Position numbers and translations under genes: made by a program. The notes below the pieces were generated by a model that saw only the letters and a program-made list of their open reading frames with translations, was not told the DNA's origin and did no database searches. Source: Arbacia lixula (taxonomy: Eukaryota; Echinodermata; Echinoidea; Arbacioida; Arbaciidae). From it: 64,000 nucleotides of DNA. The stretch is from contig OZ022576.1 of the NCBI GenBank assembly GCA_963669155.1, forward strand, positions 28,921,938-28,985,937, written 5' to 3'. Of the stretch, positions 45,901 through 57,617 are shown piece after piece; within the stretch, counting starts at the first letter, position 1; each line of letters opens with the position of its first letter.

Positions 45901-48900
45901 AATCCTCAGCAATTTTATTGATATATATTTTTTTAAAGAAGAAGCAAATATGATCGCAATAATTTTTGGCACCCATCCAATCCCAAACAGATTAACATGG
46001 AAGCTTTTTTCATCTGTAGGTTTTTTCAGGATTTTGTCAAAAATACTTTTTTTTTCAGAAATTGATAATAACAAAAGGTTTACATATGACTGTTGTGTAC
46101 GCGCAGAAAGGCGCTCTATAGCGTGCAGGGAGGCGATGATATGCAGTGTGGTCATGCTATTTCAGGCATCGCGATATTTATCTCCGTCGACTCATATCCA
46201 TGTTGACGTAAGCGGAAAAAGTCAGGACACACAGTACAGCCATTTTGGATAAGCTAAACTTTACATTCATGTATGGTTACATCTCGTTATTCCGAAGGTT
46301 CTTATTCCTACGGTTTACTACTCTGTCCGCTCGATTCTATGAACATGAAAGCGGGTTGGTGCAACCGTAGTTTTGGCTCGTCCACCAGAAAACGAAATAC
46401 ACTGTAGGGTTCGTTACTCCGACAATGAAATAAACTTCTTTAAGTAAACAATACGGTGTTTTGATAAGTATTCTCGGCTTAAGGAATCCTATTCTCGTAA
46501 TAACGAAGCGCACTTTGATTTCGGATTATCGGACCCCATTTAATTTCTTGGATAAACAGACTTTCGGAATAACAAACCTCCGGCATAACGAGCATCAAGC
46601 CATAATATGTGCACCCTTTACCTGGTTTTCTGGACGGTAGGACATCCGATAGTAGGGTAACATCTGGATCCCCGCCTTGGATGCCTCGGGACTCTGGTAC
46701 AGACCCATTGCGTGGTGCCAAGTCTCAGTGGCCCACTCCCTATTGAGTAGGCACATAGAAAAACATCACAAATCTCCGCTCCATAGATATCTCAATACGA
46801 CGCATCTCTGCTCTTATGTGGAACTACGAGGTTTCCCCTTTACGATCAGGTTGCACACAATGCGAAATATACTTCACAGTCACACACGGACAAATACTCA
46901 CAAAAACATCACACCTAATGGCAAGCAAATACATGTACAGTATAAAGACGGAGATAGGAGAGAGACAAGGCGAGCAATCGATAGATATGCGAGGAGGAAA
47001 GAGAGGGAGAGGGGGCAAGGGAGATGTATATAAATATATATATATATATATATATTTGTTTGTATTCTTATATATATATAAAGAAACACTATAGGCAAAC
47101 TCTGCTGATCGGAGTCGATCGGAGTCGTAGCTTCAATGGGCTCCCTTCCGGCATCGAATCGAAATGTGAAGCCCCAACTTCCCCCCGCCCCTCCCCCCTC
47201 CCCCCCCCCCCCCCCCCCGGACCCATCAGAAATCGTGTCCAAAGTAAACCGGTCGGCCACCACTCCAACCTCGACGTCATCTATGCCGGCTGACCTAGCA
47301 TTATCAGCCAAGTTGACGGCGACGGAAAGGCCCATGATTCCCATTCCGATTACGACTATTTTGCAGCGGCGTTGAGGGGTGTGTGTGAACATGATTTCGT
47401 TGTTGTGATGGCAAATGATCGAAAACTGATTATGATGGTTGGTTGCTTTATGCGGTCGAGGCATATAATGAGGTGTAGTCATCTATGGGGTGTTTGTATA
47501 TATCTAGGGTGGTGTGGAACGCTCACCATTGGGCAATTTTAATTATTCAAAATGGCGTTGATGGCTGCCGTGAAAGATTAAAATTGGGAATTTCTTCCTA
47601 TTTGTCTAAATATATTTCACGGATATTTCACCACTGCATTAGCAGAAGCAGGAGATGCTATGGTACCAAAAGTTAAGAGGAAGATAAAGGAAGACTACTC
47701 CACAGACCTCACACTATGTGCTGCCAGAGAAAAAACTGAGAGTCGACGTGCTGATCCTTCTGAAGTGAGAAAGAGTAATGTTGAGGAAAGGAAGGAAGCT
47801 CTCAGTGCCGAAGAAGCATTGACTGAGAAGATTAGGAGAGTTGAGAGTGCAGCATACAAGTATAAGTGTAATGAAAGCTGGTCAAACATCAATGAGATTA
47901 CAGGAAGAAAGAGAAGGAGTTCAAATCTTATCCAGGGAAAGGGTCAGAGGAGAGGAAGACAAATTGGTCGGACCACTTCAAAACACTGTGAGGACAACCC
48001 TCTTGCACACCTCAGAATGGATATGGAGATAGGACCCTTTACATGTAAGGAGCTTAAGAGAGCAAGAGAAAAAAATCAACGAAGGTTAGGCGTGTGGAGA
48101 TGATGGAGTGGCACCGGAAGGGGTGAAGAGGCGTGATTTCAATGATATCATCCTGGAGTTTTGTAATCTCGCACTGGAGAATGGTGTTGCCCCAGATCAA
48201 TGGAGGATCAGTAGCATCGTCCTGGTCGCGTATTTTTTTATTTACACCACTGCTCCGCCAAAATCTGTGCGCTCTAACAAAGCTCTCGGATCGTTCTCGC
48301 GTGAGATTTGATTGTGTCGATCACCGAGTCTAGTCGAGTTGACGTTGTCTCATCTTGGTCTGAGCTCAATGAGTTATACTCTATCTGCTAGAATTGTATA
48401 ACACATTTATTCCGTCAAAGCTATGTATCTTATTCATATGTTGAAATAAGGTTTGTTTTTAAAAACTAAGTTATTATGAACAAAATCAAGGAGATGTACA
48501 CGACGAAACGTGTGGTCAACGTGTTAGACTCTTGCGTGAGCCGTTTCTGTGAGGTTTTTTTTAAATATTGTGGCGGAGCAGTAGTGTAAATAAAAAATAC
48601 GCGTCTCGGTCCCAAAGAAAGGTGACCTTACTGAAACCAATAAACCGAGGCATCTCCTGACGTCAATTGTTGCAAAGAACCTCAACACGATTATTATAAA
48701 CTGTATCCAACCAGACATTGAGAGGGAGCTAAAGCAGATTCAGAGAGGAAAAATCCACCACTAGTCACAATCGTATGCTAAAGAGAATTCTTGAAGGCAT
48801 CAGAGCAAAATGCTTTCCCGCTGTCATGGTATTCATAGACTTTAAAAAAGGCCTTTGACTTTGTAAACCGTAGTTATTTAATGAAGATTCTGAGAGCTTA

Positions 48901-57617: not shown

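Follow-up and report, generated by a model that had tools for sequence, protein, structure and literature searches.

A D-amino-acid/D-aspartate oxidase family gene of Arbacia lixula with two intact first exons, a dead third copy and a single complete body

The vertebrate UGT1 and GCNT2 genes have multiple variable first exons in front of one common set of downstream exons, and the accounts of these clusters describe birth-and-death evolution, with dead first exons among the live ones in UGT1 (PMC1885805; PMC3325998). For human D-aspartate oxidase (hDASPO), isoforms are described that use an upstream start or skip an exon (PMC8260693). Searches of open-licence PubMed Central papers on these enzymes or on FAD enzymes listed none that describes first-exon duplication in the D-amino-acid/D-aspartate oxidase family; the type of arrangement is already known, and its occurrence in this family appears to be new. 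Here we characterize an oxidase locus of the echinoid Arbacia lixula at which, as in UGT1 and GCNT2, tandem homologous first exons (three copies, named 1A, 1B and 1C) precede one body and at which, as in UGT1, a dead first exon (1C) stands beside intact ones (1A and 1B) whose donors are in phase with the common exon. Unlike UGT1 and GCNT2, the gene belongs to an unrelated enzyme family, has only two intact copies, exchanges an FAD-binding unit together with an active-site gate and is known here from genomic sequence rather than from transcripts; unlike the human oxidase isoforms as described, its variants would come from duplicated first exons. We interpret the locus as a small cluster of variable first exons of the UGT1 type, with two putatively live exons, one dead exon and one complete body, a reading to which we give a probability of roughly 0.57.

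The gene lies on the minus strand of the analysed window, a 64,000-nt stretch of contig OZ022576.1 (G000:C1:28921938-28985937). Exon 2 (46622-46739; REWATETWHHAMGLYQSPEASKAGIQMLPYYRMSYRPENQ), which is common to the 1A and 1B models, is followed by exon 3 (45208-45290), exon 4 (44371-44436), exon 5 (42885-42939), exon 6 (40564-40665) and exon 7 (39838-39920), the last body exon inside the window; all have AG/GT borders and agreeing phases, confirming the initial annotation in its claim that exons 3–7 continue in one frame. Its description of the body as exons 2–7 was right for these exons and too short in extent. The window exons alone (a first exon plus exons 2–7) reach positions 2–258 or 1–258 of the 353 positions of the Pfam DAO profile, no C-terminal motif came up when the window's minus strand was scanned for motifs, and the three frames of 30000-39837 gave no Pfam match. 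With 40 kb of flank fetched on each side, the missing exons were located outside the window, 13.6–16.4 kb to the left of its start and on the same minus strand: exon 8 (G000:C1:28908252-28908363), whose starting phase matches the end of exon 7, exon 9 (G000:C1:28907603-28907704) and exon 10 (G000:C1:28905504-28905635), which ends with SKL and a stop codon. A first reading of the gene as a 3′-truncated pseudogene was dropped after these exons turned up. The joined ten-exon models run from ATG to stop over 361 aa (1A) and 366 aa (1B), with agreeing phases throughout, including across intron 7 (53,411 nt, of which 1-39837 lies in the window); in total the gene extends over 74,051 nt. Both products share their C-terminal 284 residues (REWATETW to SKL), and the 1A model gives a full-length DAO match (144.4 bits, profile 2–353 of 353). 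Both models have the C-terminus SKL, a C-terminal peroxisomal signal.

Intron 7 contains plus-strand coding sequence. An open stretch at 38660-39034 (plus strand), convergent with the oxidase gene, encodes a PAN_1 domain (25.1 bits against a cut-off of 21.4), and 35039-35509 and 36295-36762 resemble sister exons of this stretch and are without a Pfam match. Two open stretches near the left end of the window (810-1070 and 3044-3304, plus strand), 2,234 nt apart, have an identical repetitive translation of 86 residues; the pair is a recent local duplication.

First exon 1A (57385-57617, minus strand; MSTHTPRCKLVVIGGGVSGIATAV, with the tail GIWSAHFDSMPKGSELERRLR) and first exon 1B (50262-50509, minus strand; MSTHTPQRRNKVVVIGAGIIGLSTAV, with the tail GLWTGPGLDIQPKSVQNASELRIR) are both intact: each begins with an ATG and MSTHTP, carries the GxGxxG motif (as GGGVSG or GAGIIG) and ends in phase 2 at a donor (GTAACA in 1A, GTAGGA in 1B), as initially annotated. 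The view that there are two usable first exons holds in that both are intact and in phase with exon 2; the copy count does not, given that 1C (47119-47392, minus strand) had been overlooked. The nearest copy upstream of exon 2, 1C has 59 open codons from its ATG, reads MFTHTPQRRCKIVVIGMGIMGLSVAVNLADNARSAGIDDVEVGVVADRFTLDTISDGSG before a poly-G tract and continues after it with the frameshifted tail ASHFDSMPEGSPLKLRLR, and lacks a donor GT at the place that corresponds to the donors of the other copies. An error in homopolymer length could account for the frameshift, though not for the missing donor; 1C is a dead first exon, and an example of what an unused copy looks like at this locus. A DNA search of the 607-Mb genome with 1B returned three places, namely 1B itself, 1A (75% identity, E = 4.4e-28) and 1C (75%, E = 5.7e-26, matching at 47214-47392), a likeness far above chance. 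Uncollapsed alleles are excluded, as 1A and 1B differ at 22% of nucleotides over 54 codons. In a first-exon tree of four sequences, which was not used, 1B joined 1C at 63% support. The 1A donor has no G at position 5, a feature that it shares with two of the eight body donors. Visual inspection revealed no convincing acceptor for 1A or 1B; a weak acceptor-like TTGCAGCAG, with its end 9 nt ahead of the ATG of 1B, leaves room for a spliced 5′ leader there. Other features around the first exons are an open stretch of 75 aa at 50547-50774 (plus strand), which has no Pfam match, begins 37 nt upstream of the ATG of 1B and overlaps the likely promoter of that exon; a zf-RVT reverse-transcriptase zinc-binding domain at 53513-53896 (minus strand), left by a transposon in the interval that separates 1A from 1B; and a DEAD/DEAH helicase domain fragment upstream of 1A (58179-58595, minus strand).

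The best solved relative of the products is hDASPO (PDB 6rkf; 204 bits with 1A and 204 with 1B), and D-amino-acid oxidase (PDB 8hy5 and 2du8) scores nearly equally (201 and 199 bits, respectively); four bacterial NCBIfam families matched, all under their cut-offs. In the alignment with 6rkf, the equivalent of Arg278, described as the essential substrate arginine of hDASPO (PMC8260693), is kept in GLRPMR as Arg299 of the 1A model, and the Tyr223 equivalent is kept in the shared body. Unlike hDASPO, the oxidase body has tyrosine for Arg216 (Tyr230 of the 1A model), lysine for Arg237 (Lys257) and isoleucine for Tyr225, the last as at the Ile230 position of human D-amino-acid oxidase (hDAAO). The Arg216–Arg237 pair for the side-chain carboxylate, expected of a D-aspartate oxidase in the strict sense, is absent. 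With two of the three substrate-site arginines replaced, the initial naming of the gene as a D-aspartate oxidase goes beyond what the sequence shows: judged by its residues, the enzyme is a member of the D-amino-acid/D-aspartate oxidase family, and because of these substrate-site residues D-aspartate specificity is not supported.

Between 1A and 1B, 46 of the 77 aligned residues are identical, and the differences cluster after GIW/GLW, where only 4 residues are identical over 17 tail codons. The suggestion that the first exons diverge near the active site agrees with this: the stretch holds the equivalent of His54, which together with Arg237 forms the active-site gate in the description of the human enzyme (PMC8260693). 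The histidine is kept in 1A (His63); 1B has Pro65 at this position, placed through the 1B–1A alignment because the phmmer alignment of 1B gaps in the tail stretch. One tail type is common to 1A and 1C. Unlike D-amino-acid oxidase, neither 1A nor 1B has a Gln-Pro-Tyr gate loop. Such a loop is found in a homologue in the same genome (G000:C11:6778689-6809946, hereafter the C11 homologue), which is more canonical, with a DAAO-like gate loop MQPYL, tyrosine at the His54 position and the C-terminus ARL; one first exon was found for it (MASPRIAVVGAGISGIATAV, with the tail MQPYL and a phase-2 end). A second relative, of the same family and orientation, lies to the left of exon 10 at G000:C1 about 28887900-28899640, 22–34 kb left of the window. 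It consists of open stretches that resemble, in the right sequence, exons 1, 2, 3, 6 and 10, with individually weak matches (E 0.005 to 1.5), with a phase-2 first-exon end and the C-terminus SKL, GADVVA in place of GxGxxG and no YGHG. This divergent neighbour may be a catalytically dead, still peroxisomal relative or a decaying copy.

Up to GLW/GIW, 1A, 1B and 1C evolved under constraint. Over the first 54–56 codons, dN/dS (NG86) was 0.22 for 1A–1B, 0.25 for 1A–1C and 0.23 for 1B–1C, and all usable bootstrap replicates (300, 298 and 299, respectively) stayed below 1. The 1A–1B ratio over all 77 aligned codons was 0.37 (0.289/0.776), and in the tail of 17 codons, a short and nearly saturated stretch, dN was 1.02 and dS 1.21. 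A dS of 0.70 between 1A and 1B amounts to about 0.35 changes per site per branch. We simulated neutral decay with one indel per ten substitutions, scoring a copy as intact when start, frame and donor were kept and no stop was gained. The probability of remaining intact was 0.236 (1A) and 0.219 (1B) at 0.05 changes per site, 0.077 and 0.073 at 0.1, and 0.0033 for each at 0.35 (0.033 and 0.036 with substitutions only). Taken together, dN/dS and the neutral simulation indicate that 1A and 1B served a function through most of their history and either still do or were orphaned recently; past constraint is no proof of present use.

The main competitor to the cluster interpretation is that the locus was a tandem whole-gene array, or that first-exon duplicates were never taken into use, so that one first exon feeds the body and the other intact one is an undecayed orphan. 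We consider this doubtful, and several observations speak in its favour: 1C shows that copies die at this locus; the divergent neighbour, a family member in the same orientation, shows that whole-gene tandem duplication has occurred here; and an intact probability of 0.22–0.24 for a neutral copy at 0.05 changes per site makes recent orphaning possible. That the C11 homologue shows one first exon only (among the matches listed) counts against the cluster reading. Against the array or orphan reading, both 1A and 1B would have survived intact as neutral sequences at 0.1 changes per site with a joint probability of only about 0.006 (0.077 × 0.073), and the bodies of the lost genes have left no trace between the copies. 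The search for extra copies of exons 2–7 between the first exons that the initial annotation had proposed, run on 47393-50261 and 50510-57384, found none, and no remnant of exons 2–10 appeared in either stretch at E ≤ 1 (protein) or E ≤ 0.05 (DNA). In the 46 kb upstream of 1A, a protein search gave no body match, and the DNA search gave a single match of 24 nt to exon 5 (E = 0.019), taken as chance. As a power control, the nine body exons were randomly mutated, placed in the 9,744-nt interval from 1C to 1A, with 1B left out, and searched for with the exon 2–7 protein at E < 0.01, counting at least one exon found as success. The body was found in 40/40, 40/40, 32/40, 7/40 and 0/40 trials at 0.1, 0.2, 0.35, 0.5 and 0.7 changes per site, which excludes recently dead bodies and not very old ones; had the bodies been long dead, 1A and 1B must have stayed intact without them. 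Decay in place of a tandem array, the alternative raised at first, is thus disfavoured by the absence of remnants at good power for recent decay (40/40 at 0.1 and 0.2), and an orphaned first exon would need the bodies to have been removed by clean deletion, and recently.

Nor was a second body found elsewhere. A tblastn search of both models against 164 kb (matches >90% identical left out) gave one set of exons 2–10, and among the matches listed in the whole-genome tblastn search with both models, 17 places in all, 12 belonged to this gene, 4 to the C11 homologue and 1 to the first exon of the divergent neighbour, none of them a second body for 1A or 1B. Both searches agree with the single set of exons 2–7 that had been reported. 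The genome search scored the best candidates only and listed some but not all exons of the C11 homologue and the neighbour, so a strongly diverged further copy could escape it; a genome-wide Pfam search, in which the best 15 of 77 candidates were scored, was too general.

An assembly error, in which exons 8–10 or one first exon were misplaced and the joined gene did not exist, is highly improbable: the opposite-strand coding sequence within the 53.4-kb intron 7 would fit it, but the phases all agree across that intron, the 144 kb joined first contain zero N, 1A and 1B are too different (22% over 54 codons) to be uncollapsed alleles, and no alternative partner for exons 8–10 appeared among the matches listed in the genome search. 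Equally improbable is another role for one first exon (for instance, coding for a short protein or yielding a noncoding promoter transcript) without splicing to exon 2, for which nothing specific speaks and against which donor, phase and reading frame fit exon 2 in both 1A and 1B.

The core of the initial annotation holds: the locus contains one body and two first exons that are both intact and in phase with it. Under the variable-first-exon reading, the first coding exon, encoding the FAD-binding beta-alpha-beta unit and a loop that ends at the active-site gate, would have been duplicated; 1A and 1B would still be usable, and the copy nearest exon 2 would have died. Since 1A and 1B have their own start codon and donor and no convincing acceptor, each most likely uses its own promoter. 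A transcript would be spliced from the 1A or 1B donor to the single exon 2, with first exons in between passed over because they lack an acceptor. The cofactor-binding unit would set the two predicted products apart, with the greatest difference in the gate segment. More tentatively, alternative promoters may swap the FAD-binding unit and gate, between a histidine form (1A) and a proline form (1B), to give two oxidases that differ in substrate entry or specificity.

Should both first exons be in use, the gene would extend variable-first-exon clusters to a family of enzymes in which none was found described in open-licence PubMed Central papers. A cofactor-binding unit and gate loop would then be exchanged over a fixed catalytic body, and the locus would provide a natural test of the role of the gate in D-amino-acid oxidases.
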